Shown here piece by piece: positions 4,641 to 60,057 of a stretch of DNA of 64,000 nt (its first letter is position 1; the number at the start of each line of letters is the position of its first letter). The notes under the pieces are model-generated. The model searched no databases and had not been told where the DNA came from. It saw nothing but the letters and a program-made list of their open reading frames with translations. Source of the DNA: Seonamhaeicola sp. ML3 (GTDB lineage: Bacteria > Bacteroidota > Bacteroidia > Flavobacteriales > Flavobacteriaceae); the NCBI RefSeq assembly GCF_023273855.1, contig NZ_CP096884.1:2356001-2420000 (forward strand). Direction: 5' to 3'. A program made the translations under genes and the position numbers.

Positions 4641-4696
4641 GATTTTTGGTTCGCATGGCTTTGTTAGTTTTGAGCAAACTAAAACTAGACGAAGCT

Positions 4697-5737
4697 ATGT
4701 TAAACTACATTCGAATAGATGGTGATTCGATGGTCCCTAAGTACATGCAGATTATCAATTCCATTATTGATAATGTTTCTATTGGTAATATAAAAATAGG
4801 AGAGAAGATACCATCGATAAATACTTTAAGCCAAGAATTTTACTTATCTAGGGATACCGTTGAGAGAGCCTATAACATTTTAAAGAAAAAGAATGTGGTT
4901 GTCTCCGTTCGTGGTCGAGGAACATACATAGCTGAAGCTGATCTTACAAGAAAATTGAAAATTCTATTTCTTGTTAATAAATTGAGTCCCTACAAACTAA
5001 AAGTCTATAATGCATTCTCTGAAACAATGGGCGAGCACTGTAATGTAGATATACACAGTTTCCATTGCGACCAAACATTGTTTGAAGAGCTTATGGATAA
5101 GTATAAATCATCTTATGATTATTACGTGATTTTACCTCATTTTAGAACAAAGAATTTATGCTACTTGAGTTCCACTAGTAAAGTTTCTAGTGTTATTAAC
5201 AATATTCCAAAAGATAAACTGGTTTTATTAGATAACTGTAATTACCAAATAAAAGGTGATTTTATTTCGGTTTATCAAGATTATGAAAATGATATTTTTA
5301 CAGCCCTTGAAACAGGTCATAAAAAAATAAGTAACTACCAGAAACTAAACCTAGTTTGTCCAAGAAGGACATTCTATCCGTATCCAACAAAAATCCTAGA
5401 TGGCTTTAGAAAGTTTTGCGCTCACAATGGTTTTGATTTTGAAATAATTGAAGAAGTTTCCAGTGAGTTTAAAGTCGAAAAGCACAACTTGTACATTACA
5501 ATAGAAGAGAATGATTTGGTAAATATTATGTCTCAGATAAAGAAGTGTAGGCATAAATTAGGTGCTGATGTAGGTGTGATATCCTATAATGATACGCCAT
5601 TAAAACAAGTATTGGGTATTAGTGTGTTTTCGTTAGATTTTGACGATATGGGAACGCAGGCAGCACAAATGATTTTAGAAAACAAGAAAGATAAGGTAAA
5701 AGCCTCTTTTAATTTTATTGATAGAGAATCTGCTTAG
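4697..5737 (+). CDS. GntR-family regulator with sugar-binding effector domain
   Basis: This is a 346-residue regulator. The N-terminal winged helix (about residues 10-75) has the GntR signature P-K-Y-x-Q-I, followed by F-Y-L-S-R-D-T-V-E-R-A-Y and a V-R-G-R-G-T-Y wing. Residues about 90-345 form a LacI/periplasmic-binding-protein-like domain, as in AraR. I chose the ATG at 4697 because its product aligns end to end with the paralog at 46920-47969 and because a -7-like box lies at 4633-4640. An in-frame start at 4646 would add 17 residues without counterpart. It sits between PUL genes and the HTCS, and probably controls PUL or rhamnose genes in response to a sugar or sugar phosphate. Repressor or activator role is unknown. 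Confidence 0.85.
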   Translation: MLNYIRIDGDSMVPKYMQIINSIIDNVSIGNIKIGEKIPSINTLSQEFYLSRDTVERAYNILKKKNVVVSVRGRGTYIAEADLTRKLKILFLVNKLSPYKLKVYNAFSETMGEHCNVDIHSFHCDQTLFEELMDKYKSSYDYYVILPHFRTKNLCYLSSTSKVSSVINNIPKDKLVLLDNCNYQIKGDFISVYQDYENDIFTALETGHKKISNYQKLNLVCPRRTFYPYPTKILDGFRKFCAHNGFDFEIIEEVSSEFKVEKHNLYITIEENDLVNIMSQIKKCRHKLGADVGVISYNDTPLKQVLGISVFSLDFDDMGTQAAQMILENKKDKVKASFNFIDRESA

Positions 5738-46919: not shown

Positions 46920-47969
46920 TTACAAAGATTCCCTTTCTATAAAATTAAAAGGTACTTTTATTTTACAACCCGAGGATTTGTCTTGAATTATCTTAGCAGC
47001 AGATTCGCCCATTACCTTAAAGTTTGTTGATATAGTTGTTATACCTAATAGTTCTTTTAAGGGTGTCTCGTTATAAGATATGATACCTATATCTTTTCCC
47101 AATTTGAATTCGTCCTCACGAATTTGCTTTACTAAACTAACCAAATCAGATTCTTCAATAGTAATGAATAAATCACCACGTTTTAAGATCATATCGTCAT
47201 ATACATTATCAAAAACTTCGAAATCCAGCTTGTGTTCTACACAAAACTTACGGAAGCCATGAAGAATCCTTCTTGGATAAGGGCTTACCGATCTATCTGG
47301 ATAAATTAGCATGAGTTTTTCATACTTTTTTATTTTATCCAAGCCTTTAGTGAGTGCCTCGTAAATATCATTTTCAAAATCCTGATATACCTCATTGGTT
47401 TTTCCATTAAAAATAGGCTTACTATTATCTAAAAGAATAAACTTTTCAGGAGGTAATTCTTTAAGCTTGTCTAAAACTTTATCTGTAAAGCTAATATGCC
47501 TTTGGTCTTCTGTTTTGAAATGAGGCATTATAACAAAATAGTCGTAAGCAGCTTTGTTTTTGTCTAAAAGGTTCAAGAAGAGGGTTTCATCACAGTGATA
47601 TACATGCAAATCGGTATGTGAATTAGGCCCAATACTATTAATAAAATGATTGTAGGTTCTCAGCTTGTAATTACTGAGTTTGTTTATAAGAAAAAAGATG
47701 TTAATCTTAGAAATTAGTTTTGTCCTGGAAATATAAAATCCTTTACCTCTAATGGAGGTTATAATGTTCCTTTCCTTTAGAATGCTGTATGCTTTTTCTA
47801 CGGTATCTCTGGATAAATAAAATTCCTCACTAAACATGTTTATAGAGGGTATTTTCTGGTCTATAGTAAGATTTCCAGTAGAAATATTATGAATAATGGA
47901 GTCTATTATTTGCTGGTATTTAGGTACCCTTGAGTTCTCATCAATTTGAATAAATTTCATCATTTTCAT
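46920..47969 (-). CDS. GntR-family regulator with sugar-binding domain, probable rhamnose regulator
   Basis: This 349-residue regulator is a paralog of the GntR protein at 4697. It shares V-P-K-Y-x-Q-I-I-x-S-I-I, F-Y-L-S-R-D-T-V-E, the I-R-G-K-G wing and the LacI-like effector domain (Y-D-Y-F-V-I-M-P-H-F). The ATG at 47969 is preferred over 48005 because a perfect -7 element, TACCTTTG on the minus strand, covers 48003-48010; a start at 48005 would lie inside the promoter. The gene is divergent from rhaEW, a standard layout for a pathway-specific regulator, and could bind the shared element in between. The effector is probably rhamnose, rhamnulose or rhamnulose-1-phosphate. Confidence 0.87.
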   Translation of the reverse strand: MKMMKFIQIDENSRVPKYQQIIDSIIHNISTGNLTIDQKIPSINMFSEEFYLSRDTVEKAYSILKERNIITSIRGKGFYISRTKLISKINIFFLINKLSNYKLRTYNHFINSIGPNSHTDLHVYHCDETLFLNLLDKNKAAYDYFVIMPHFKTEDQRHISFTDKVLDKLKELPPEKFILLDNSKPIFNGKTNEVYQDFENDIYEALTKGLDKIKKYEKLMLIYPDRSVSPYPRRILHGFRKFCVEHKLDFEVFDNVYDDMILKRGDLFITIEESDLVSLVKQIREDEFKLGKDIGIISYNETPLKELLGITTISTNFKVMGESAAKIIQDKSSGCKIKVPFNFIERESL

Positions 47970-48002
47970 AATTCCTTTTTTTAAGCGACAAGTTCCTTGC
48001 GA

Positions 48003-48010
48003 CAAAGGTA
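48003..48010 (-). promoter_or_regulatory. -7 promoter element of the GntR gene
   Basis: TACCTTTG on the minus strand (CAAAGGTA on the plus strand) is a perfect match to the Bacteroidota TAnnTTTG -7 box. It lies 34 bp upstream of the chosen GntR start. Confidence 0.6.
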
Positions 48011-48228
48011 TTAGAAAAGTACAAAAAGCCTAAATAAAACCCCAATTATATGGCAAAAATAAATGAGGTTTTCGCCAAAGAATAAAAAAAATAAGGTAGC
48101 TGTAGGTTATTTCTTGTTATTTTGAAGTATAACCCCTTTTTAAAAGCATTTTGAGTGTTTTTTGAAGCAGGTTTTTTTGTTTTACTAAGTGGGTTTAGAA
48201 AGTTTTAATTTTAAATGTTAAAAATTAC

Positions 48229-48272
48229 GGTACAGTACAGGATAGAAAAGATGGTTTTCAGATTTAATTTTG
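48229..48272 (+). promoter_or_regulatory. rhaEW promoter with shared operator
   Basis: GGTACAGTACAGGATAG (48229-48245) is followed by AAAAG. TACAGTACAGGATAGAAAA is identical over 19 bases to the site before the NCS1 permease gene. The core TACAGGATAG begins at 48236 and a perfect -7 box TAATTTTG begins at 48265, 29 bp downstream. The site occupies the -33 region and no TTG box is evident, so an activator or a competing repressor could act here. The promoter position excludes the upstream TTG codon at 48270 as the start of rhaEW. Confidence 0.75.
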
Positions 48273-48299
48273 GATTCGAAATTTATACTAAAATTAAAA

Positions 48300-50405
48300 A
48301 TGAGCGAAATTGTAAAGAGTTTTAAATATGTTGATTACTTATGGGATGAAGCAAAAGCAGCATCTTTAGGAGATAATCAAGTGGAGTTATTTTTATATAG
48401 GTCCAATGTATTAGGAGCGGATTTAAGAATCACGAATTATGGTGGTGGTAACACCAGTTGTAAAACTATTGAGAAAGACCCATTAACAAACGAAGAAGTT
48501 GAGGTTATGTGGGTTAAAGGATCTGGTGGAGATATTGGTACCTTAACACGTTCTGGTATTGCAGGATTGTACACTGGCAGACTTAGAGATTTGAAAAATG
48601 TTTATCAAGGACTTCACGATGAGGATAGAATGGTTGGTTTATTTAACCACTGTATTTACGATTTAGATAGTAAAGCACCTTCTATAGACACGCCTTTACA
48701 TGGTTTATTACCATTTGCACATATCGATCACTTACACCCAGATGCTCTTATCGCAGTAGCCGCTGCCGAGGATAGTGAAAAAGTTACCAAAGAAATTTGG
48801 GGAGATACTATGGGTTGGGTACCATGGCAAAAACCAGGATTCGATTTAGGTTTACAGTTAGAAAAGTGTTTAGCCGACAATCCAGGTATTAGAGGTATCG
48901 TCTTAGGAAGTCATGGTTTATTCACTTGGGGAGATACATCTTACGAGTGTTACATGAACAGTTTAGAGGTTATAGAAATGGCTTCAGACTATATCACAAA
49001 GAAAATTGAAGCAGGTGGACCAGTATTTGGTGGGCAAAAAGTAGAAAGCTTACCAAAAGAAGAGCGTTTAGAAAAAGCAGCGCAATTAATGCCTTTATTA
49101 AGAGGTTTATGTTCTTCAGAAAACAGAATGATTGGTCATTTCTCCGATACCGATGTTGTAATGGAGTACATCAACAGTAATGACCTTGAGCGCCTTGCGC
49201 CTCTTGGAACTTCTTGTCCAGACCACTTCTTAAGAACTAAAATACAACCGTTGGTGTTGGATTTAGATAAAAATGAAGACTTGTCTGATGCAGATGCTAT
49301 ATTGAAAAAATTAGAGCCAGCATTTGAAGCTTACCGTAAAGAATACGAAGATTACTATAATACATGTAAAGTAGACAATAGTCCAGCTATTCGTGATGCA
49401 AATCCTGTAATCATCATATACCCAGGTGTTGGTATGTTTAGTTTTGCTAAAAACAAACAAACTACACGTGTAGCGAGTGAGTTCTACATCAACGCTATTA
49501 ACGTAATGCGTGGTGCTGAGGCTATTACGTCTTACACCTCTTTACCAAGACAAGAAGCATTCAATATTGAGTACTGGTTATTAGAAGAGGCTAAGTTACA
49601 ACGTATGCCAAAAGAATTACCATTATCTCGTAAAGTTGCTTTAGTTACTGGAGCAGGTGGAGGAATAGGTAAAGCTATTGCAGATAAATTGGCAGCACAA
49701 GGTGCTAACGTAGTACTTACTGATATTAACGAAGAAGCTTTAAAAGAAGCTAATGCAACATACAAAAGAGATGTGTCCACTTATGCAGTATGTGATGTAA
49801 CAAGCACAGAATCTATAGCTAGTGCATACAAGAAAGCTGTATTGGAATTTGGTGGAGTAGATATCATAGTACACAGTGCCGGATTAGCAATATCTAAACC
49901 ATTAGAGGATACAACAGACAAAGACTGGAATATTTTGCAAAATATATTGGTAAAAGGTCAGTTCGATTTAGCAAAACAATTTGCAGCTATAGCCCGTAAG
50001 CAAGGTTTAGGTGGTGATTATATTGCTATTGCAAGTAAAAATGGATTAGTAGCTGGACCTAACAACGTAGCTTATGGAACTGCTAAGGCAGCACAACAGC
50101 ACATGGTACGTTTATTAGCAGCAGAATTAGCAAAAGACAAAATAAGAGTAAACACTGTAAATCCAGATGGTGTTATCGTTGGAAGTAAGATCTGGGAAGG
50201 TGCATGGGCAGAAGGTAGAGCCAAAGCAAACGGGATTACCGTTGAAGAGCTACCAGCTTTTTATGCAAAAAGAAACTTACTGCACGAAATCATTACACCA
50301 GATGATATAGCTAATGGTGTGTTCTCTTTAGTGGGTATACTCGATAAATCTACAGGTAATATTATCAATGTAGATGGTGGTATGGCCAATGCTTTTGTAA
50401 GATAG
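48300..50405 (+). CDS. rhaEW: Bifunctional rhamnulose-1-phosphate aldolase / L-lactaldehyde dehydrogenase
   Basis: This 701-residue fusion has an N-terminal class II aldolase domain (about 1-430) with zinc-binding H-I-D-H-L-H-P. The C-terminal short-chain dehydrogenase domain (about 443-701) has the Rossmann motif T-G-A-G-G-G-I-G and catalytic Y592-x-x-x-K596. In the RhaEW family the aldolase splits rhamnulose-1-phosphate into dihydroxyacetone phosphate and L-lactaldehyde, and the dehydrogenase oxidises the lactaldehyde to L-lactate in the cytoplasm. The ATG at 48300 is used because the in-frame TTG at 48270 lies within the -7 box. It is the first gene of the rhamnose block and carries the best copy of the shared operator. 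Confidence 0.95.
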   Translation: MSEIVKSFKYVDYLWDEAKAASLGDNQVELFLYRSNVLGADLRITNYGGGNTSCKTIEKDPLTNEEVEVMWVKGSGGDIGTLTRSGIAGLYTGRLRDLKNVYQGLHDEDRMVGLFNHCIYDLDSKAPSIDTPLHGLLPFAHIDHLHPDALIAVAAAEDSEKVTKEIWGDTMGWVPWQKPGFDLGLQLEKCLADNPGIRGIVLGSHGLFTWGDTSYECYMNSLEVIEMASDYITKKIEAGGPVFGGQKVESLPKEERLEKAAQLMPLLRGLCSSENRMIGHFSDTDVVMEYINSNDLERLAPLGTSCPDHFLRTKIQPLVLDLDKNEDLSDADAILKKLEPAFEAYRKEYEDYYNTCKVDNSPAIRDANPVIIIYPGVGMFSFAKNKQTTRVASEFYINAINVMRGAEAITSYTSLPRQEAFNIEYWLLEEAKLQRMPKELPLSRKVALVTGAGGGIGKAIADKLAAQGANVVLTDINEEALKEANATYKRDVSTYAVCDVTSTESIASAYKKAVLEFGGVDIIVHSAGLAISKPLEDTTDKDWNILQNILVKGQFDLAKQFAAIARKQGLGGDYIAIASKNGLVAGPNNVAYGTAKAAQQHMVRLLAAELAKDKIRVNTVNPDGVIVGSKIWEGAWAEGRAKANGITVEELPAFYAKRNLLHEIITPDDIANGVFSLVGILDKSTGNIINVDGGMANAFVR

Positions 50406-50526: not shown

Positions 50527-51807
50527 ATGAAAATCCAAAAAGACCAGGTATTAGAGTTCAACAAGAAAGGCTTAGAAAGTCATAAAGAAAGTTTTGATTT
50601 TTTAGCAAGCAAATTAAGTAAGGAAGGAAAAGATGTAAATTCCATTGTATCAAAGTTAGCCGATTTCCAAGTGGCTATTCCTAGTTGGGCTTTAGGTGCC
50701 GGAGGAACTCGTTTCGGGAGATTTTCATTCTACGGAGAGCCATCGAGCTTAGAACAAAAAATTGATGATATTGGGATTTTACATAGTTTAACCCAAACCG
50801 CTGGAGCGGTATCATTGCATATTCCATGGGATATTCCATCAGATTATGCAGCCATAAAAGAAAAAGCCGATGCTTTGAACATTAAATTCGATGCTGTTAA
50901 CTCAAACACTTTCCAAGATCAAAAAGATGCTGCTGAAACTTATAAGTATGGTTCTTTAAGTAATACCAGCAAAGCCGTAAGAGAGCAAGCTATCCAACAT
51001 AATATTGATGTAATTAATATTGGTGATAAACTTGGCTCTAAGGCATTAACAGTTTGGTTAGCAGATGGGTCTTGTTTCCCTGGACAAAATAACTTCCAGA
51101 CAGCATTTCAAAATACTCAAGATAGTTTGGTAGACATTTACAAAGCGTTACCAGACGATTGGAAAATGTTAGTTGAATACAAACCATACGAACCAAACTT
51201 CTACAGCACGGTAATTCAAGATTGGGGAGCATCATTGATGTTGGCTAATGGTTGTGGTGATAAGGCCTATACTTTAGTAGATTTAGGACATCACTTACCA
51301 AACTCGAATATAGAGCAAATAGTTTCAATATTACAATTAAAAGGTAAATTAGGAGGTTTCCACTTTAACGACAGTAAGTATGGAGACGACGATTTAACCG
51401 TTGGAAGTATCAAGCCTTATGCTTTATTCTTAATTTTCAATGAGCTAGTTTATGGTATGCAAAACAATCCACAAAATCCAGAATTAGCATGGATGATTGA
51501 TGCTAGCCATAACGTAAAAGATCCTTTAGAAGATTTAATACAATCTCTAGAAGCTATTCAAGAAGCCTATGCCAAAGCAATGCTTATAGATCAAGATGCA
51601 CTTAAAGCAGCACAATTGGATAACGATGTTGTAAAGTGTCAAGAGATATTACAAGGAGCTTACAGAACAGATGTAAGGCCTCTATTAGAAAAAGCACGTT
51701 TAAATGCCGGAGGAGCTTTAAGTCCAATTCATGCTTATCGCGGACTTGATGTAAGAGCAGGATTAATTCAGGAAAGAGGTAAATATACAGTTGCTACTGG
51801 TTTATAA
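50527..51807 (+). CDS. rhaI: L-rhamnose isomerase (alternative, rhizobial-type)
   Basis: This 426-residue TIM-barrel sugar isomerase has no signal peptide. It converts L-rhamnose to L-rhamnulose. Motifs include H-I-P-W-D, V-E-Y-K-P-Y-E-P, V-D-L-G-H-H, G-F-H-F-N-D-S-K-Y and D-A-S-H-N, the metal-binding and catalytic strands of the Pseudomonas stutzeri/Rhizobium-type rhamnose isomerase, whose usual length is about 430 residues. It is not the E. coli RhaA family. It lies after a hairpin downstream of rhaEW and 9 bp before the kinase gene, consistent with one pathway operon. Confidence 0.92.
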   Translation: MKIQKDQVLEFNKKGLESHKESFDFLASKLSKEGKDVNSIVSKLADFQVAIPSWALGAGGTRFGRFSFYGEPSSLEQKIDDIGILHSLTQTAGAVSLHIPWDIPSDYAAIKEKADALNIKFDAVNSNTFQDQKDAAETYKYGSLSNTSKAVREQAIQHNIDVINIGDKLGSKALTVWLADGSCFPGQNNFQTAFQNTQDSLVDIYKALPDDWKMLVEYKPYEPNFYSTVIQDWGASLMLANGCGDKAYTLVDLGHHLPNSNIEQIVSILQLKGKLGGFHFNDSKYGDDDLTVGSIKPYALFLIFNELVYGMQNNPQNPELAWMIDASHNVKDPLEDLIQSLEAIQEAYAKAMLIDQDALKAAQLDNDVVKCQEILQGAYRTDVRPLLEKARLNAGGALSPIHAYRGLDVRAGLIQERGKYTVATGL

Positions 51808-51816
51808 CCAAATGAG

Positions 51817-53196
51817 ATGAAACAAAAAGTAACTGCCGTTTTCGATATAGGTAAAACTAACAAAAAGTTTTTTCTTTTCGACAAAGACTTCAAAGAGGTT
51901 CATAAAGAATATATCTCTTTTGAAGAAATTGAAGATGAAGATGGGCATCCTACAGAAAACCTACCTGCATTAAAACAATGGTTAAAAGATGTTTTTGACA
52001 ATATTTTAAAATCAGAAGAGTTTTCGGTAAAAGCCATAAACTTTTCTACCTATGGCGCTAGTTTTGTTCATTTGGATGAAAATGGTCAAATTTTAACTCC
52101 TTTGTACAATTATACCAAAGAAATTGATGCTGAAATTGTAGAACAATTTTACAATGAGTATGGTAATGATAAAGAATTAATGAGAACAAGTGGTTCATCA
52201 AAATCACCTGGATTATTAAATTCTGGATTGCAATTGTATTGGTTAAAACACAAAAAGCCTGAAGTATTCAAAAAGATAAAATATTCTCTACATTTACCTC
52301 AGTATTTAAGTTATATTTTCTCAGGAGTCCCTCTAAGTGAATACACAAGTATTGGTTGTCATACCATTTTATGGAATTACGAAACCAAAGATTATCAGGA
52401 ATGGGTATACAAAGAAGGTATAAATGCTATTTTACCTCCAATTGTTTCTACAGAAACAAGTTTAAACATGAATTACAATGGTAAAAGAATAAAAATTGGT
52501 GTTGGAATACACGATAGTTCTTCTGCCTTATTACCTTACGTAAGAAGTGTAAAAAAACCATTCGTTTTGGTATCTACAGGTACTTGGAGTATATCTTTGA
52601 ATCCTTTTGTAGACACTCCTTTAACACTAGAAGATATTAATTCAGATTGTATTAATTACATGCGTATTAATGGAAAACCTGTAAAATCTTCAAGATTATT
52701 TTTAGGAAACGAATATAAAGTTCAGGTTGCTAAATTATCTGAAAAATTTAGTAAAGATGATGATTATCATAAAACGGTAGCGTTTAATTATGAAACTTAC
52801 GCTCGAATTAATAGTGATTTTAAGTACTCCTTTAAATGGGAATCTATAGAGCATAAAAACATGCCTGAACAAACAAATTATAACTACAGTACTTTTGAAG
52901 ACGCCTATCATCATTTGATGTTAGAGTTAGTAAAACTACAAGTAGAAAATATTGAGAGGATTGCAGATTTAGAAAAGATTGACAGGCTTTATGTTGATGG
53001 AGGCTTTAGTGATAATGATATTTATATCAAATTATTGTCTCATTATCTAAGAGGTATGAAATTACGAACAACAAAAGCGTCTTTAGGTTCTGCCTTAGGA
53101 GCAGCGATTGCAATTTCAGATACCAAACTGAATTCAAAGTTCTTGAAAAAGAACTATGCGCTTAAAAAGCATGTGCCGTTTATCATAAACGGATAG
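51817..53196 (+). CDS. rhaB: FGGY-family carbohydrate kinase, probable L-rhamnulokinase
   Basis: This 459-residue protein has the FGGY kinase fold. V-F-D-I-G-K-T-N near the start is the phosphate-1 motif, and S-T-G-T-W-S-I is the adenosine-region motif. V-D-G-G-F-S-D-N and G-S-A-L-G-A-A lie in the C-terminal half. FGGY kinases phosphorylate a range of sugars. Placement between rhamnose isomerase and aldolase genes makes rhamnulose the likely substrate, yielding rhamnulose-1-phosphate. The gene symbol reflects that inferred role; the protein is divergent from E. coli RhaB. Confidence 0.85.
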   Translation: MKQKVTAVFDIGKTNKKFFLFDKDFKEVHKEYISFEEIEDEDGHPTENLPALKQWLKDVFDNILKSEEFSVKAINFSTYGASFVHLDENGQILTPLYNYTKEIDAEIVEQFYNEYGNDKELMRTSGSSKSPGLLNSGLQLYWLKHKKPEVFKKIKYSLHLPQYLSYIFSGVPLSEYTSIGCHTILWNYETKDYQEWVYKEGINAILPPIVSTETSLNMNYNGKRIKIGVGIHDSSSALLPYVRSVKKPFVLVSTGTWSISLNPFVDTPLTLEDINSDCINYMRINGKPVKSSRLFLGNEYKVQVAKLSEKFSKDDDYHKTVAFNYETYARINSDFKYSFKWESIEHKNMPEQTNYNYSTFEDAYHHLMLELVKLQVENIERIADLEKIDRLYVDGGFSDNDIYIKLLSHYLRGMKLRTTKASLGSALGAAIAISDTKLNSKFLKKNYALKKHVPFIING

Positions 53197-53276: not shown

Positions 53277-54566
53277 ATGTCAAAAAATCTTAAGCTAATT
53301 CATCCAAGAGACCAAATCACCGAGATAATTAGCAGAATTTACAAAAGAGGTATGACTACAACCTCTGGTGGAAACATTTCAATCATAGACGGAAATGGCG
53401 ATATATGGGTTACACCTTCTGCTGTAGATAAGGGCTCTTTGAGAGCGTCCGATATTATATGTGTAAAAAAGGATGGAACCATTGTTGGAAAGCATAAACC
53501 GTCGTCAGAGTTTCCATTTCATAAGGCGATTTACGAAGCCAGGCCAGATATTAAATCGGTAATTCATGCACATCCACCAGCATTAGTGTCTTTCAGTATT
53601 GTACGACAAATTCCAAACACAAATATTATTTCTCAAGCAAAACACATATGTGGGCCTATTGGCTATGCCAAATATAGACTACCAGGTAGTGAAGATTTGG
53701 GCGATGTTATTGCTGATGAGTTTAAAAAAGGTTACAAGGCAGTTATCATGGAAAACCATGGTACTGTTCTAGGAGGAAGCGATTTAACTGATGCATACGA
53801 TCGTTTTGAAGCATTAGAGTTCTGTGCAAGAACAATTGCATATGGTTCGCAGATAGGAACTCCTAAATACCTTACAGACGAGCAAATCGATGAGTTTGAA
53901 TCTCAAGCTACTGGAGTATTACCCGAAATGGAGAGCGTAGAATACACTTCTGAGGAAGTTGAGAAACGACTTGAAATTTGTAAAATAGTACAACGTTCTT
54001 GTCAACAAGGTTTAATGATTGGGTCTTATGGTACGGTTTCAATGCGCTGGAATGACAACGATTTTTTAATTACACCAACCGATGTAGATCGTTGGGACTT
54101 AGCTTTAGATGATATTGTTCAAATAAAAGACGGAAAACGAGAAGCTGGAAAAATACCTAGTAGAGCAACATGGATTCATCAAGAAATATATAATAGAAAT
54201 CCTGATGTTAACTCCATTATTATGACACAATCACCTTACCTGATGGCATTTGGTGTTACTGGAGAATATTTAAATGTAAGAACCATTCCAGAAAGTTGGA
54301 TATTTTTACAAGACATAAATTTTGTCAAATACGGACACCATTTCAGAAAAAACAATAATTCTGAAATAGTTGACAATTGTCCAACAGCTTTGATTATTGA
54401 AAATGATTCAGTTATCATTACAGGAGATAAGTTGCTGCAAACTTTTGATTATTTAGAAGTGGCAGAATTTAGCGCTAAATCTATTGTTCTTGGTAGTTCT
54501 CTGGGCGATATGGTGCCTATAAACGATGAACAAGTAGAAGATTTAAGAAAGAAATTTTTAGCATAA
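53277..54566 (+). CDS. Tandem class II aldolase/adducin-domain protein with degenerate second domain
   Basis: This 429-residue cytoplasmic protein has two class II aldolase/adducin domains. Domain 1 (about 1-210) has S-G-G-N-I-S, S-S-E-F, H-A-H-P-P and E-N-H-G-T, the catalytic Glu and zinc-binding histidines of sugar-phosphate aldolases. Domain 2 (about 225-429) keeps the fold, but the equivalents read S-R-A-T, M-T-Q-S-P and E-N-D-S, so the metal site is lost. It sits between rhamnulokinase and lactate dehydrogenase genes, yet RhaEW already supplies the aldolase. It may handle a second sugar phosphate, act as an epimerase-like enzyme, or serve as an auxiliary aldolase. Confidence 0.83.
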   Translation: MSKNLKLIHPRDQITEIISRIYKRGMTTTSGGNISIIDGNGDIWVTPSAVDKGSLRASDIICVKKDGTIVGKHKPSSEFPFHKAIYEARPDIKSVIHAHPPALVSFSIVRQIPNTNIISQAKHICGPIGYAKYRLPGSEDLGDVIADEFKKGYKAVIMENHGTVLGGSDLTDAYDRFEALEFCARTIAYGSQIGTPKYLTDEQIDEFESQATGVLPEMESVEYTSEEVEKRLEICKIVQRSCQQGLMIGSYGTVSMRWNDNDFLITPTDVDRWDLALDDIVQIKDGKREAGKIPSRATWIHQEIYNRNPDVNSIIMTQSPYLMAFGVTGEYLNVRTIPESWIFLQDINFVKYGHHFRKNNNSEIVDNCPTALIIENDSVIITGDKLLQTFDYLEVAEFSAKSIVLGSSLGDMVPINDEQVEDLRKKFLA

Positions 54567-54570
54567 AATT

Positions 54571-55719
54571 ATGGCAATAAGTTTTGATACACGTTATCCT
54601 TCAATAGATGACTTAAGGAAAAAAGCTCAAAAAAAGATACCGAAATTTGCATTTGAGTATCTTGACGGTGGCTGTAACGAGGATGTAAATTTAATTCGTA
54701 ATACCTCTGAATTAAGGGAAGTACAATTAAAGCCTAATTATTTAAGAAAGCACCATGGTTCATCATTAAAAACCAAATTATTTGGTGTAGAATACGATGC
54801 ACCATTTGGAATTGCTCCAGTAGGTCTTCAAGGTTTAATGTGGCCTAATTCTCCTGAAATATTAGCAAAGGCTGCCTTTGAGCATAATATACCTTTTATA
54901 CTAAGTACGGTTACTACAACCAGTATAGAACGTGCCAGTGAATTAACAGAGGGTAAGGCTTGGTTTCAATTATATCATCCTGCCGAAGATTCACTTAGAG
55001 ATGATATCATAAACCGAGCAGAAGCTGCAGAATGCCCAGTATTGGTTATTCTTTGTGATGTGCCAACATTTGGTTTTAGACCAAGGGATATTCGAAATGG
55101 ACTGGCAATGCCTCCTAAAATGACATTAAGCAATATTTTACAAGGTTTTACACATCCTCATTGGAGTTTGCAAACTTTAAAATATGGTATTCCTAGTTTT
55201 GAAACCTTGAAACCATATATGCCAAAGGGCTTAGATTTAAAGCAATTAGGTAAGTTTATGGATCAAACTTTTAGTGGTCGACTTAACGAAGAAAAAATTA
55301 AACCAATTCGCGATATGTGGAAAGGTAAATTAGTTCTTAAAGGTGTAGCTTCTGAATACGATACTGAAGAGGCTATTAGATTGGGCCTAGATGGAATAAT
55401 CGTTTCTAATCACGGAGGTCGTCAATTGGATGCTGGAGAATCTACCGTAAAACCTTTGACAACAATTGCTGAAAAGTACGGAGACCAAATTGAAGTAATG
55501 ATGGATAGTGGTGTACGTTCTGGTCCAGATGTCGCCAGAGCTATGGCTAGTGGCGCTAAGTTTACCTTTATGGGGCGCTCATTTATGTACGGAGTTTCAG
55601 CTTTAGGTAAAAAAGGAGGTAACCATACCATATCATTGTTAAAAACAGAATTACAACAGGTTATGGAACAGTTGTGTTGTGAAAAGACTACCGATTTTCC
55701 TAACCATTTGATAAAATAA
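54571..55719 (+). CDS. lldD: FMN-dependent alpha-hydroxy-acid dehydrogenase, probable L-lactate dehydrogenase
   Basis: This 382-residue TIM-barrel flavoprotein has P-K-F-A-F-E-Y-L-D-G-G near the N terminus, the I-A-P-V-G-L FMN-binding strand and the signature S-N-H-G-G-R-Q-L-D with the catalytic His. Members oxidise L-lactate to pyruvate and feed electrons to the respiratory chain or oxygen. In this operon it would consume the L-lactate that the RhaEW dehydrogenase makes, completing rhamnose to dihydroxyacetone phosphate plus pyruvate. It starts 4 bp after the previous stop. Long-chain hydroxy-acid or glycolate oxidase activity is the alternative. Confidence 0.88.
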   Translation: MAISFDTRYPSIDDLRKKAQKKIPKFAFEYLDGGCNEDVNLIRNTSELREVQLKPNYLRKHHGSSLKTKLFGVEYDAPFGIAPVGLQGLMWPNSPEILAKAAFEHNIPFILSTVTTTSIERASELTEGKAWFQLYHPAEDSLRDDIINRAEAAECPVLVILCDVPTFGFRPRDIRNGLAMPPKMTLSNILQGFTHPHWSLQTLKYGIPSFETLKPYMPKGLDLKQLGKFMDQTFSGRLNEEKIKPIRDMWKGKLVLKGVASEYDTEEAIRLGLDGIIVSNHGGRQLDAGESTVKPLTTIAEKYGDQIEVMMDSGVRSGPDVARAMASGAKFTFMGRSFMYGVSALGKKGGNHTISLLKTELQQVMEQLCCEKTTDFPNHLIK

Positions 55720-55863: not shown

Positions 55864-56637
55864 TTAATGTACTGGAAACGTTAACATCCAATCTATCCAT
55901 TGAACATGACTAAATACCGCTTTGTTTCCTTGGGCATGATTAGCTTCTGGAAATGCTATATACTCTACATTAGGGTTCCCAGCTGCTTTTAAAAGTGAAG
56001 CCATTGTTTTTACGGAACTCACGTTTTTACCATCCGAACCTCCAACCATTCCAAAAACAGGAAGGTTAATGAGTTTATCTACATTTTCATTTTGTGAAAT
56101 ACCACTAAAGCCGCAAGGTGCTGCAGCTGCAAAACGTTCTGGTGATTTTTGTATCCAATCCCATGTACCTCGACCACCCATACTATGGCCCATAACATAA
56201 ATACGATTTCTGTCAATTTCAGTATACGTCTCAAGTATGTAGTCTAGCATAGTATTGAGGGTGTCAGGATTCCATTTGCCATGAGAATTAGGCTCTAAAA
56301 GTATGAGTTCTTTTCCAGCTAGTTCGGCAAGATGAAGCCCTTTTACCTTAGAAGAGCGATTAAGCTGTTCTTCTATAGTCCATGTTTTTCCACCTCCTCC
56401 ATGAAGTGAAATAAGAAGCGGGAGTTTTGTTTTTTTACTTTTTTTTGGGAAGGCTATAAAAGCAGTGTCCTTTAATTCGCCCAGTTTAGACTGCATGCTT
56501 TTGGGCCATTTTAATAGCTTCACTTCTGTGTTTTTAAAACTGTTGTTAATACTTTCAAGAGTTTTTTGTACATCAGTTGTTTGGCAAAAACTTGATAGGA
56601 CAAATACATTAAATAGGATAAAAACTAATTTCTTCAT
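55864..56637 (-). CDS. Exported alpha/beta-hydrolase esterase
   Basis: This 257-residue protein has a Sec signal peptide (about residues 1-20). The catalytic triad can be placed at Ser142 (G-H-S-M-G-G), Asp192 (G-G-S-D-G-K) and His224 (A-N-H-A-Q-G). The oxyanion-hole motif H-G-G-G-G is at 79-83. It resembles the poly-hydroxybutyrate depolymerase/prolyl-oligopeptidase-like carboxylesterases found in PULs, which often remove acetyl or feruloyl groups. It is convergent with the rhamnose operon and has its own promoter, so its link to the PUL is positional. Confidence 0.82.
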   Translation of the reverse strand: MKKLVFILFNVFVLSSFCQTTDVQKTLESINNSFKNTEVKLLKWPKSMQSKLGELKDTAFIAFPKKSKKTKLPLLISLHGGGGKTWTIEEQLNRSSKVKGLHLAELAGKELILLEPNSHGKWNPDTLNTMLDYILETYTEIDRNRIYVMGHSMGGRGTWDWIQKSPERFAAAAPCGFSGISQNENVDKLINLPVFGMVGGSDGKNVSSVKTMASLLKAAGNPNVEYIAFPEANHAQGNKAVFSHVQWIDWMLTFPVH

Positions 56638-56766: not shown

Positions 56767-56812
56767 ACAGTACAGTACAGGATAGAAAAACTTCATAGGC
56801 AGTTTATATTCG
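56767..56812 (+). promoter_or_regulatory. NCS1-permease promoter with shared operator
   Basis: ACAGTACAGTACAGGATAG (56767-56785) is followed by AAAAA. TACAGTACAGGATAGAAAA is identical to the rhaEW site. The core TACAGGATAG starts at 56776 and a -7-like TATATTCG starts at 56805, a 29-bp offset. The ATG lies 102 bp from the core. This is the strongest sequence link between the permease and rhamnose catabolism. Confidence 0.75.
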
Positions 56813-56877
56813 TTTTTACGATTTTTTTGAATTCATTTCATGAAATCTAAAACTAACAAATAAACTAAATATAAATT

Positions 56878-58272
56878 ATGGCAGAAAATCAAGTAGATGG
56901 ATTAACCATTGAAGATAATTCAGGGGGAGAATTCGAAAGAACCCCGGTACCCGCTTCGAGATTAAAAGGTTGGAAATCTTTTTTAGGTATGTATGCAGGA
57001 GAACATGCTGCTGGTACTGAATTTATGATTGGTCCTCTGTTCTTAGCTGCAGGAGCCAGTTTAAAGGATTTAATATTAGGGCTGTTTATTGGTAATATCT
57101 TAGCTATTCTTACTTGGCGTTATATAGTAGCTCCTATAGCTGTATCCAACAAGCTAACATTGTATTATCAATTAGAAAAAATTGCCGGAAAACATTTGGT
57201 AAAGATATATAATGTTGTAAATGGCGTACTTTTCTGTTTCTTAGCAGGAGCGATGATTACGGTTTCTGCGAGTGCTGTAGGAATTCCATTTGATGTGAGT
57301 TTTTCTGTTCCTGAAAGTGTTTTTGGTTTAAGTAGTACTTCCTTTTCAATAATAGTTATTATCGTAGGTATAGTAATGACTATTGTAGCAGCAGCTGGTT
57401 ATAATATGGTATCTAAGTTTGCAAATATTGCGGCGCCTTGGATGATTGTAGTTTTTGCTGCTTGTGGTATATCGGCATTATCGCAAATGGATGTTGATTC
57501 ATGGAAAAGTTTAATAACAGAGTGGGATCAAGGGATTAGTGTAGTGCAATCTATTAATGGTAAAGTAGATTTTGGTTTTTGGAAAATTGTAATTTTTGCT
57601 TGGTTGTGTAATGCGGCTATGCATTTCGGAATGTCAGATTTAAGTATCATGCGTTTTGCCAAGGACAGTCGCGCAGGATGGGGACCTTCCATAGGAATGT
57701 TTTTAGGACATTACATGGCATGGATTTGCGCTTCATTTATGTTAGCAGCCCAAATCAAATTAACGGGTGATATTTCTGCTAACCCAGGTGCTCTTGCTTG
57801 GAGCGTTGTGGGATGGACTGGTATTATATGTGTGATTATAGCTGGTTGGACAACTGCTAACCCTACTATTTATAGAGCAGGTTTAGCTTTTCAAAGTTTG
57901 TTTTCGTCTAAATCTAAAGCATACTCTGGTGTGATTTTAGCAGGTATCGTAGCAACAATAGCTGGAATTTTTCCAACATTGTCAAGTAAATTGCTCGATT
58001 TTGTAGGCTTATATGGTACAATATTAGGCCCTATGGGAGGTGTGATATTTGTTAATCACTATCTTGCTAAAAAAATGGGATTCACTCAAGATTATGCCGA
58101 TGAGAAAGGATCTAGTTTTAATCTAGCTGTTTTATTGGCTTGGGTTATTCCTGTAGGTCTAGGGTTGTATTTTATTTTTGCTAAAGGTTTATTCCCTGCC
58201 TATGCGGTGATTCCTTGTTGGATAGCTTCAAGTGTATTGTACGTGCTTATTATGAAACTTCAAAAATCTTAA
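56878..58272 (+). CDS. NCS1-family (purine-cytosine permease-like) transporter, possible rhamnose-pathway permease
   Basis: This 464-residue integral membrane protein has about 12 hydrophobic segments. It shows features of the NCS1/purine-cytosine permease family, such as an early G-x-Y-A-G-E-H-A-A-G-T-E-F helix and N-C/N-A-A-M-H-F-G-M-S-D in the middle. Family members import nucleobases, allantoin, hydantoins or vitamins with a cation. Here the promoter carries the same operator as rhaEW and the gene follows the rhamnose block, so the substrate may be rhamnose, a uronate or an oligosaccharide-derived compound. That is inference. A 56-residue membrane protein follows after 3 bp. Confidence 0.85.
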   Translation: MAENQVDGLTIEDNSGGEFERTPVPASRLKGWKSFLGMYAGEHAAGTEFMIGPLFLAAGASLKDLILGLFIGNILAILTWRYIVAPIAVSNKLTLYYQLEKIAGKHLVKIYNVVNGVLFCFLAGAMITVSASAVGIPFDVSFSVPESVFGLSSTSFSIIVIIVGIVMTIVAAAGYNMVSKFANIAAPWMIVVFAACGISALSQMDVDSWKSLITEWDQGISVVQSINGKVDFGFWKIVIFAWLCNAAMHFGMSDLSIMRFAKDSRAGWGPSIGMFLGHYMAWICASFMLAAQIKLTGDISANPGALAWSVVGWTGIICVIIAGWTTANPTIYRAGLAFQSLFSSKSKAYSGVILAGIVATIAGIFPTLSSKLLDFVGLYGTILGPMGGVIFVNHYLAKKMGFTQDYADEKGSSFNLAVLLAWVIPVGLGLYFIFAKGLFPAYAVIPCWIASSVLYVLIMKLQKS

Positions 58273-58275
58273 ATT

Positions 58276-58446
58276 ATGAAAATACTTAAATTAGTTAGTG
58301 TTGTATCAATAGGTGTTTTAATTCTATTAGTAAGTATACTTTCATTTTTGGGTTCAATAGAAGTTGCGAATATGAAAATGCTTATGCTCATAGGTACAGT
58401 CGTTTGGTTTGTAGCCACTCCTTTTTGGATGAAAGAAGACGAATAA
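58276..58446 (+). CDS. Small two-helix membrane protein downstream of the NCS1 permease
   Basis: This ORF encodes 56 residues. It starts 3 bp after the permease stop and has two hydrophobic segments (about residues 5-27 and 34-50) and an acidic C terminus (M-K-E-D-E). Codon pattern and placement before a strong terminator at 58537 support a real gene co-transcribed with the permease. It may stabilise or regulate the transporter. No family was recognised. Confidence 0.7.
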   Translation: MKILKLVSVVSIGVLILLVSILSFLGSIEVANMKMLMLIGTVVWFVATPFWMKEDE

Positions 58447-58536: not shown

Positions 58537-58570
58537 AGAGGTGTGTTTAATGATGCACCTCTTTTTATTT
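58537..58570 (+). terminator. Rho-independent terminator after the NCS1 permease unit
   Basis: AGAGGTG (58537-58543) pairs with CACCTCT (58556-58562), followed by TTTTATTT. It closes the permease/small-protein transcription unit. Confidence 0.85.
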
Positions 58571-58722: not shown

Positions 58723-60057
58723 ATGTCCAAACAAGAAGTATCCAACAAGTCTAATGCCAATTATCTTGTTCCAATTTTAATAATAGGCGGTTTATTTTTC
58801 ATTTTCGGTTTTGTTACCTGGGTTAATGGGGCGTTAATTCCATACATGAAAGTTATTAACGAACTCACCGAAGCACAATCCTTTCTAGTGGCATCAGCAT
58901 CTTATATTTCTTTTGTTGTAATGGCATTGCCAGCCTCGAACATTATATCCCGGTTAGGATATCAAAAAAGTATGTCGTTAGGCTTAGTGGTTATGGGCTT
59001 GGGAGCTTTGGTATTTATTCCAGCTGCCAATGCTAGAACTTACTGGATGTTTTTAACAGGACTTTTTATTCAAGGAGCGGGTATGACATTACTTCAAACG
59101 GCATCAAACCCTTATATCACCATACTTGGACCTATTGAAAGCGGGGCAAAACGTATAGCTATCATGGGAATAGCTAATAAAGTAGCAGGAGGTTTAGGAT
59201 CTATTATTTTTGGAGCCATCCTGTTAACGGGTATAGACGGCGTTAGTGAGAAGCTCAAAGTATTAACAGATATAGAAAAGGAATCTTTGTTAAACGATAC
59301 TGCTAGCGAGGTAGTAGTGCCATACATCGTTATGGCTGTTGTTCTTTTCATTTTAGGAGTGCTTATAAGAAAGGTGTCACTGCCAGACGTTTCAGCAGAA
59401 CCTATTGTTGATGAAAATAACAGAGAAACAACTAAAAAGAGCATTTTACAATTTCCACATCTACTTTTAGGTGTGCTTGTTTTGTTTGTTTATGTAGGTG
59501 CTGAAGTTATTGCAGGAGACTCCATCATTACATATGGTATTTCTTTGGGTATTTCTCCCGATGAAGCCAAGTTCTTTACATCCTTTACGCTATTAGCCAT
59601 GGTGGCTACATATGCATTGGGAGTCTTTTTAATACCTAAATACATTAGTCAGTCTATAGCCTTAAGGTCTAGTGCTATTTTAGGAATTATTTTTTCGTTT
59701 TGTATACTTTTTACAGAAGGGTTTACATCCATCATTTTTGTTGCGGCACTTGGCATAGCTAATGCTTTGGTGTGGCCAGCAGTTTGGCCTTTGGCATTAA
59801 CCGGGTTGGGCAAGTTTACAGAAAAGGGTTCAGCTTTGTTAATAATGGCTATATCAGGAGGAGCTATTATCCCGCCAATTTATGGCTACATTGTAGACTC
59901 AAGCAAAGAGAAACTTATCCAATCAGGTTTAAATGAAGCTACTGCAATAACAGAATCTGCAACAAACGGTTATTGGGTGCTTTTACCCTGTTACATTATT
60001 ATTCTATTCTATGCTTTTTGGGGCTATAAAGTGGGTTTAAAAAGGTCTAATCACTGA
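58723..60057 (+). CDS. FucP/GlcP-type sugar:proton symporter (MFS)
   Basis: This 444-residue major facilitator protein has 12 predicted membrane helices. The opening G-G-L-F-F-I-F-G-F-V-T-W-V-N-G, the loop S-R-L-G-Y-Q-K-S and Q-T-A-S-N-P-Y are hallmarks of the FucP/GluP family. Such permeases import L-fucose, glucose, galactose or, in many Bacteroidota, L-rhamnose. Its position after the rhamnose catabolic genes suggests L-rhamnose as the substrate. It has its own upstream region after a terminator. Whether it or the NCS1 permease is the main rhamnose importer is open. Confidence 0.88.
   Translation: MSKQEVSNKSNANYLVPILIIGGLFFIFGFVTWVNGALIPYMKVINELTEAQSFLVASASYISFVVMALPASNIISRLGYQKSMSLGLVVMGLGALVFIPAANARTYWMFLTGLFIQGAGMTLLQTASNPYITILGPIESGAKRIAIMGIANKVAGGLGSIIFGAILLTGIDGVSEKLKVLTDIEKESLLNDTASEVVVPYIVMAVVLFILGVLIRKVSLPDVSAEPIVDENNRETTKKSILQFPHLLLGVLVLFVYVGAEVIAGDSIITYGISLGISPDEAKFFTSFTLLAMVATYALGVFLIPKYISQSIALRSSAILGIIFSFCILFTEGFTSIIFVAALGIANALVWPAVWPLALTGLGKFTEKGSALLIMAISGGAIIPPIYGYIVDSSKEKLIQSGLNEATAITESATNGYWVLLPCYIIILFYAFWGYKVGLKRSNH

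Follow-up and report, generated by a model that had tools for sequence, protein, structure and literature searches.

An NCS1-like permease and a tiny membrane protein encoded directly behind it very probably form the inner-membrane L-rhamnose uptake system of the rhamnose operon in Seonamhaeicola sp. ML3, in which the permease would act as a Na+-coupled symporter and the small protein as its accessory subunit. Gene order, operator conservation, co-occurrence with rhamnose genes, a gene fusion in related permeases and fold homology point to this assignment, which was derived from sequences and structure models. The DNA stretch analysed (the window) comprises 64,000 nucleotides, to which the plain coordinates refer.

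The gene pair, its operon and its operator

Both open reading frames assumed by the first-pass annotation were recovered, that of the permease (56878..58272, + strand, 464 aa) and the tiny one downstream of it (58276..58446, + strand, 56 codons), which starts 3 bases past the permease stop codon. The permease is the sole match of its kind in its own genome (E ≤ 10). The small ORF is regarded as a real gene because it is conserved beside the permease across three phyla and because AlphaFold2 models its product as two helices (residues 2–24 and 30–52, mean pLDDT 89.9). The terminator previously placed after the small gene corresponds to an intrinsic-terminator-like hairpin at 58537..58562 (+ strand; 11 pairs, 4 of them G-C, followed by a T-rich tail); this call is a consensus match, and the scanned stretch contained three such sites compared with 0.9 in shuffled sequences. 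The site count of a sigma-70-type promoter scan was not above that of shuffles, and no Rfam match at gathering scores was obtained between 46500 and 61000.

The operon starts with rhaEW (48270..50405, + strand), which encodes the bifunctional rhamnulose-1-P aldolase/lactaldehyde dehydrogenase and scores above the NCBIfam cut-offs of NF006191 (1334 bits, cut-off 1240) and TIGR02632 (937 bits, cut-off 567.75); its true start is likely the ATG at 48300. The L-rhamnose isomerase gene rhaI (50527..51807, + strand) matched TIGR02629 and TIGR02635 with scores under the cut-offs (499.7 bits for 646.75 and 409 bits for 531, respectively), no other family being listed for it. The next gene (51817..53196, + strand) encodes a rhaB-like FGGY kinase, named from its position in the operon and from its best match, rhamnulokinase TIGR02627, which scored far under cut-off. 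It is followed by the genes for a tandem class II aldolase with two PF00596 stretches (53277..54566, + strand) and an lldD-like FMN L-lactate dehydrogenase (54571..55719, + strand; PF01070; 291 bits with PRK11197, whose cut-off of 376 was not reached). The tandem aldolase shares approximately 44–47% identity with aldolases encoded beside this permease in Planctomycetota, at the four loci L106, L125, L142, and L145. A divergent alpha/beta hydrolase gene (55864-56637), about 67–72% conserved in several relatives, is located between lldD and the permease, and a FucP-like MFS transporter is encoded past the terminator (58723-60057).

Rhamnose ranks among the major sugars of algal polysaccharides. 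The operon is surrounded by a polysaccharide locus, in which nine proteins were scanned and three GH106 alpha-L-rhamnosidases, two GH43 proteins, one GH2 protein, and one sulfatase were identified. Two similar GntR-type regulators flank this locus, one at 4646-5737 (judged by eye) and one at 46920..48005 (− strand). The latter contains a periplasmic-binding-like sensor domain (Pfam GntR and Peripla_BP_3), and its orthologues adjoin rhaEW in many relatives. It is a candidate regulator of the operator described below, to which it would bind.

Because of the three rhamnosidases, import of a rhamnose-containing di- or oligosaccharide, or of a uronate freed together with rhamnose, had to be weighed against import of free rhamnose. 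Glucuronate-type genes (identified by eye) are indeed found 3' of the pair at L035/L084 and L100, but these are just two of the 21 loci with a permease of the window's type (class A), and the permease belongs to short rhaEW-rhaI-rhaB operons. Moreover, rhamnosidases at such locations usually act outside the cytoplasm. Uptake of an oligosaccharide or a uronate is hence considered quite unlikely, and the uronate suggested as a substrate by the first-pass annotation found little or no backing.

The operator sequence is shared by rhaEW and the permease, as had been claimed, and the identity extends over 20 instead of 19 bases. The 20-mer GTACAGTACAGGATAGAAAA is present in identical form before rhaEW (copy 1, 48230..48249, + strand), where it is kept in relatives, and before the permease (copy 2, 56770..56789, + strand), ending 88 bases 5' of the start codon. 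The surrounding repeat is longer, with 22 of 23 bases identical between 48227-48249 and 56767-56789. When up to three mismatches were allowed, two operator matches were detected in the window compared with a mean of 0.01 in shuffled sequences, none of which gave two. The exact 16-base core occurs at these two sites only in the whole 3.47 Mb genome; two further core sites were found genome-wide at two mismatches.

Control of the permease in the manner of rhamnose catabolism, proposed from this shared operator, is corroborated in relatives. Leaving aside L085, 20 flavobacterial class A relatives were tested, and in 18 of them the permease is preceded by the operator with up to four mismatches (reached by 0 to 2 of 50 shuffles each, simple base shuffles being used for the class A and class B tests); the two loci without it (L081 and L090) have the permease directly 3' of lldD. 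With up to three mismatches, it was detected before rhaEW in 11 of 12 class A relatives and in 13 of 16 loci tested of the second major type, class B. An operator in front of the class B permease itself was found in three of 17 cases (L038, L043, and L047), in which the permease is preceded by a 147-base gap or a divergent gene. In the remaining 14, the permease is separated by no more than about 60 bases from the preceding rha gene and has no operator.

Association with rhamnose isomerases and replacement by RhaT

Of 397 genomes from the family of the window, Flavobacteriaceae according to named relatives, 102 encode a homologue of the permease (E ≤ 1e-20). By identity, the homologues were assigned to class A (window type; 85% in G152), class B (approximately 48–55%, the commonest class), class B2 (approximately 45%), and class C (approximately 34–40%, ORFs mostly longer). 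The search for RhaI in the 397 genomes gave 92 matches. A class A or B permease and RhaI occur together in 83 genomes, the permease without RhaI in one and RhaI without the permease in nine; in the sole permease-only genome (G356), the gene belongs to class B and is truncated at the end of a contig. In 80 of the 83, an intact permease gene is located within 20 kb of rhaI, one genome (G132) has a remnant, and in two (G002 and G327, the latter class B) the permease is cut by contig ends; these two were left out of the RhaT comparison.

Counting all permeases of at least 45% identity, 85 genomes also contain RhaI, and the two genes are no more than 20 kb apart in 81 of them; G217 and G256, whose only permease is of class B2 and lies away from rhaI, are included among these 85 and among the nine RhaI-only genomes of the count given above. 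In 79 of the 81 close pairs, including the G132 remnant, the permease is encoded downstream of rhaI on the same strand, and in two (G020 and G249) on the opposite strand. The FucP-like transporter was considered as the real permease of the operon and rejected; it is present in none of the 20 class A and 17 class B stretches. Galactose genes (named by eye) are located 3' of some class B loci (L036, L039, and L041), and galactose was set aside as a substrate because the link of the permease is to rhaI.

Since the permease often adjoins lldD, it might carry an end product of the pathway, L-lactate or lactaldehyde, for export or re-uptake, instead of rhamnose. In many loci, the permease is encoded 3' of an lldD-like gene, and lactate-oxidation genes (lutABC-like, by eye) are found nearby in others. 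However, in seven of 17 class B loci (L036, L039, L040, L041, L045, L050, and L052), rhaB or the tandem aldolase gene directly abuts the permease, with no lldD in between. In the group from Planctomycetota and Verrucomicrobiota, the permease is encoded 3' of rhaA, and in G132 the rhamnose porter RhaT takes its place (both described below). Transport of an end product thus appears unlikely compared with uptake of L-rhamnose.

The search for RhaT (PF06379) covered the same set of 397 genomes (DISPLACEMENT). A strong RhaT (scoring approximately 170 bits or above, selected by eye; a 51-bit fragment near rhaI in G024 was not counted) was detected within 20 kb of rhaI in four of the ten RhaI genomes devoid of an intact class A or B permease, compared with two of the 80 possessing one (Fisher p 0.001). 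Anywhere in the genome, the corresponding numbers were seven of ten and 19 of 80 (p 0.005). In G317 and G127, rhaT is the first gene of the operon behind an operator-like site (3 mismatches and 1 mismatch, respectively). In G132 (L062:15622-17320), an exact operator is followed by rhaT and then by the permease remnant, and this locus is a snapshot of one transporter replacing another.

Some of the observations on RhaT count against the rhamnose assignment. Besides its presence somewhere in those 19 permease-bearing genomes, RhaT was missing within 20 kb of rhaI in six of the ten RhaI genomes devoid of an intact class A or B permease (G145, G169, G374, G291, G217, and G256), so that their operon adjoins neither of the two carriers. 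In G145, G169, and G374, RhaT is encoded elsewhere in the genome, in the two cases checked not behind an operator; G291 has no strong RhaT in its genome, and a sodium:solute symporter (by eye) is encoded within the stretch in G217 and G256. The genome of the window itself harbors a RhaT homologue (G000:C1:2275586-2276620) in another sulfatase/glycosidase locus (by eye) without an operator, in addition to the FucP-like MFS transporter at 58723.

The association with rhamnose genes extends beyond the Flavobacteriaceae. The best 80 loci of a scan of named genomes comprised 21 flavobacterial class A loci, 19 of which have rha genes within the stretch, and 59 others with 50–72% identity. The latter originate nearly all from Planctomycetota or Verrucomicrobiota; one belongs to Bacteroidia (L091) and two have no phylum (L132 and L150). 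Among the 56 non-flavobacterial loci of these best 80 that have at least 600 nt upstream, 47 encode RhaA upstream on the same strand, ending no more than 2.2 kb away (Pfam PF06134, checked in L145); the gap to the permease is 15–332 bases where gene calls resolved it. Five further loci have RhaI (L093, L139, and L146) or a downstream RhaA (L138 and L148), and at four of the 56 (L091, L147, L150, and L152) neither isomerase was found. RhaA and RhaI are matched by different models and represent separate isomerase families. With two unrelated isomerases beside the permease, the association is therefore with the rhamnose pathway itself. The sugar role proposed in place of nucleobase transport gains support from the RhaI co-occurrence and the RhaA context and can be narrowed to L-rhamnose; nothing was found for a lactone, which had been named as another possible substrate.

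In a phylogenetic tree calculated without the truncated L085 and the partial L162, the flavobacterial class A clade is nested among the rows from Verrucomicrobiota and Planctomycetota, adjoining L091 (SH-aLRT 100 for the 68-row group; 100/100 in a smaller tree with NCS1 rows). This nesting is compatible with a transfer between phyla. Class B is placed just outside the 68-row group, and B2 and C further out, the position of class C being weakly supported and long branches flagged.

Relation of the permease to the NCS1 family

The AlphaFold2 model of the permease (pLDDT 85.6, pTM 0.84) displays a predicted 12-helix 5+5 LeuT fold. Its top matches in a fold search were CodB (Z 35.3, 3.2 Å, 394 residues) and Mhp1 (Z 30.9, 397 residues), followed by other LeuT-fold families. 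Profile comparison also indicated homology, with an hhalign probability of 99.0% (E 5.5e-18, 386 columns) against 15 NCS1 proteins and of 76.5% (E 2.2e-5) against E. coli CodB alone. When solved structures were searched by sequence with the A2 profile, no match at E ≤ 1 was obtained; the homology is therefore based on profile–profile and fold comparison. The curated models did not recognize the protein as a member, the scores being 33.2 bits with TIGR00800 (cut-off 353.1) and 45 bits with PRK11017 (cut-off 326). Within 48 family members, the best Pfam E-value was 0.017, and at E ≤ 0.001 the NCBIfam CodB model matched 32 and the NCS1 model eight of the 48, the window protein staying far under the cut-offs. 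The RhaT domain (PF06379) was matched neither by the permease nor by 47 aligned relatives. The label NCS1, which the first-pass annotation had applied without restriction, holds only in the wider sense: profile alignment and fold identify the permease as a sister lineage of NCS1, and the low model scores argue against a canonical member.

The part of the CodB study used here (PMC9379551) assigns Thr278/Thr279 on TM8 to the Na2 site and reports an aromatic TM3 residue (Trp108 in CodB), mostly Trp, as conserved in NCS1. The Na2 threonines are kept as T325 and T326 in all 31 family rows. All 15 NCS1 rows have the TM3 Trp and the 31 rows of the permease family do not; the corresponding residue in the latter is 122 (mostly Leu) or 126 (Met), according to how the gaps are placed. 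Between residues 105 and 138, Trp occurs solely at 113, in the six class C rows. Another aromatic residue may serve instead, since Phe119 and Phe121 are near. An invariant W242 is found near the position of the TM6 aromatic CodB Phe204, in a region of uncertain gap placement. Further invariant polar residues are E42, H43, T47, and E48 in TM1 and N245 and H249 in TM6, which, judged from the helix breaks of the model, are placed where a sugar could bind.

The weak matches to the CodB and NCS1 models could be taken to favor an ordinary nucleobase permease that has come to lie in a rha operon by chance. Such an origin is highly improbable in view of scores that far below the cut-offs, the missing TM3 Trp, and a link to rhamnose genes that spans three phyla and two isomerase families.

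The proposed small subunit and comparison with known transporters

Small ORFs with a common GTxxWFxxTPxWM-like end, first noticed by eye, are located 3' of most of the best 80 loci. With an HMM seeded with 61 of these loci and the window, the small gene was found adjoining the permease in 79 of the 80 (E < 0.01; all but L150); the 61 seed rows are not independent, because they built the HMM. No further match at E < 1e-3 was obtained in the 80 loci. Rows not used as seeds were the other 18 adjacent matches as well as L053, L054, L185, L186, and G217. Of these, the B2 loci L053 and L054 matched with E 6e-16 and 6e-19, respectively. L185 and L186, drawn by a search with the CodB model, are B2-type permeases with the small gene from other Bacteroidota families. 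At L185:30-2222, permease and small gene lie 3' of an apparent rhamnosidase gene end (by eye).

Twelve of the 397 genomes contained a small-protein match at E ≤ 0.01; absences in this search are not absolute because only the first 15 candidates per genome were scored. The five strong matches (G000, G152, G217, G227, and G256) all adjoin a permease. The rest comprise the G341 class C tail and six weak matches (E 0.001–0.009; G048, G168, G222, G329, G345, and G380), three of which are from class B genomes and do not adjoin the permease. Class B stretches (17 long and 28 short) gave no match better than E 0.46, two B2 loci aside. The small gene thus accompanies the permease in the branch of the window and in B2 and was not found in class B; the question raised earlier, whether it is always downstream, receives a yes for the first two branches only, class C having a fusion, as described below. 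Since class B lacks it in the same operons, the small protein is not needed for the role generally. Comparison of 19 members with Pfam gave weak and scattered matches to 12 families (E 0.004 to 2.9), none of which was matched by more than two members.

In class C, the small protein is fused to the permease (L153-L163, approximately 572 aa; for example L153:8747-10465). The C-terminal tail aligns with the small protein (hhalign 91.6%, E 8e-7, 60 columns), whereas 30 control windows starting before column 450 reached no more than 0.8%, the score climbing only on entering the tail. With the small-protein HMM, only some class C tails scored well (best E 1e-5). L164, whose tail is encoded by its own 96-codon ORF, was not included in the tail alignment. 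The suggestion of a small partner for the permease is strengthened by this fusion and by the adjacency in the best loci. All 12 class C loci read have a mannitol-dehydrogenase relative beside the permease, and three of them also a PfkB relative (Pfam names checked in L153 only). Given these neighbors, a polyol is the likely substrate of class C. Class C was set aside as a rhamnose permease, its link to RhaI being weak (13 of 29 class C genomes, Fisher p 0.01).

For the pair in the window, we propose that L-rhamnose freed from polysaccharide would be brought in by the permease and passed on to RhaI, RhaB, and RhaEW. The permease would function as a 12-helix LeuT-fold symporter, probably driven by Na+ via the Na2 site Thr325-Thr326. 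The N-terminus of the small protein is probably cytoplasmic, because of its basic start and the fusion to the permease C-terminus. It would form a two-helix hairpin with both termini in the cytoplasm beside the last helices of the permease and may aid permease assembly, stability, or gating. Both transcription units would be co-controlled by the GntR-type regulator via the common operator.

On a wider scale, we lean towards a sugar/polyol branch of the NCS1 scaffold, in which classes A and B and the proteins of Planctomycetota and Verrucomicrobiota would carry rhamnose and class C a mannitol-like polyol. The ancestor of this branch would have been a split 14-helix machine made up of a 12-helix carrier and an obligate two-helix subunit, which later became part of the carrier in class C and disappeared from class B. 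If this is true, NCS1-type carriers are not limited to nitrogen compounds, and a new transporter-subunit family exists. A sugar-carrying sister branch would broaden the substrate range of the NCS1-type fold, and a small subunit that is a separate protein, a fused tail, or absent, depending on the sister branch, provides a natural series on the roles of helper proteins.

The portions of the literature covered by our search, outside of which most subscription papers lay, never tied an NCS1-like carrier to rhamnose and assigned no such carrier to rhamnose uptake in marine Bacteroidota, Planctomycetota, or Verrucomicrobiota; the phrase "cytosine permease" was absent from the 15 papers retrieved by one of the searches. 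According to excerpts of a recent study (2026, PMC13390362), nitrogen heterocycles are the common substrates of characterized bacterial NCS1 proteins, a new metformin carrier excepted, before which NCS1 uptake of other compounds is called unknown. In excerpts of PMC9296495, PMC6246565, and PMC12858550, an NCS1-like carrier is not mentioned, and the terms sought had no occurrences in PMC5613140. The mention of rhaT and fucP in Verrucomicrobiota comes from a partial text (Orellana et al., 2021, PMC8857213). No such permease is named in the passages available from two planctomycete papers (PMC11958385, PMC4207490), the words "transporter" and "symporter" being absent from the former.

The rhamnose transporters listed in the accessible part of PMC3870299 belong to at least three families, namely RhaT (DMT), RhaFGHJ/RhaSTPQ (ABC), and RhaY (MFS sugar porter); the word stem "flavobacter" does not occur in its main text. 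The permease resembles them in its proposed role, rhamnose uptake within rha regulons, and RhaT fills the same slot in some relatives, but their families are unrelated to the permease, which is none of those described in that part. With CodB and Mhp1, the permease shares the LeuT-superfamily fold, profile homology, and the Na2 threonines. It differs from them in its scores below the sequence cut-offs, the lack of the TM3 Trp, its own invariant polar residues, and the rhamnose-operon context. A sugar carrier with a small helper is also found in SGLT1/2-MAP17, which has the same superfamily fold and is among the structural matches, although the small protein described here has two helices and no known kinship to MAP17, so that the analogy is limited to the principle of operation. 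Bacterial solute:sodium symporters also have small two-helix partners, such as YjcH/DUF485, YhdT/DUF997, and DUF4212. Like these, the protein is encoded by a small two-helix ORF adjoining a LeuT-fold symporter gene, but none of them was among its Pfam matches.
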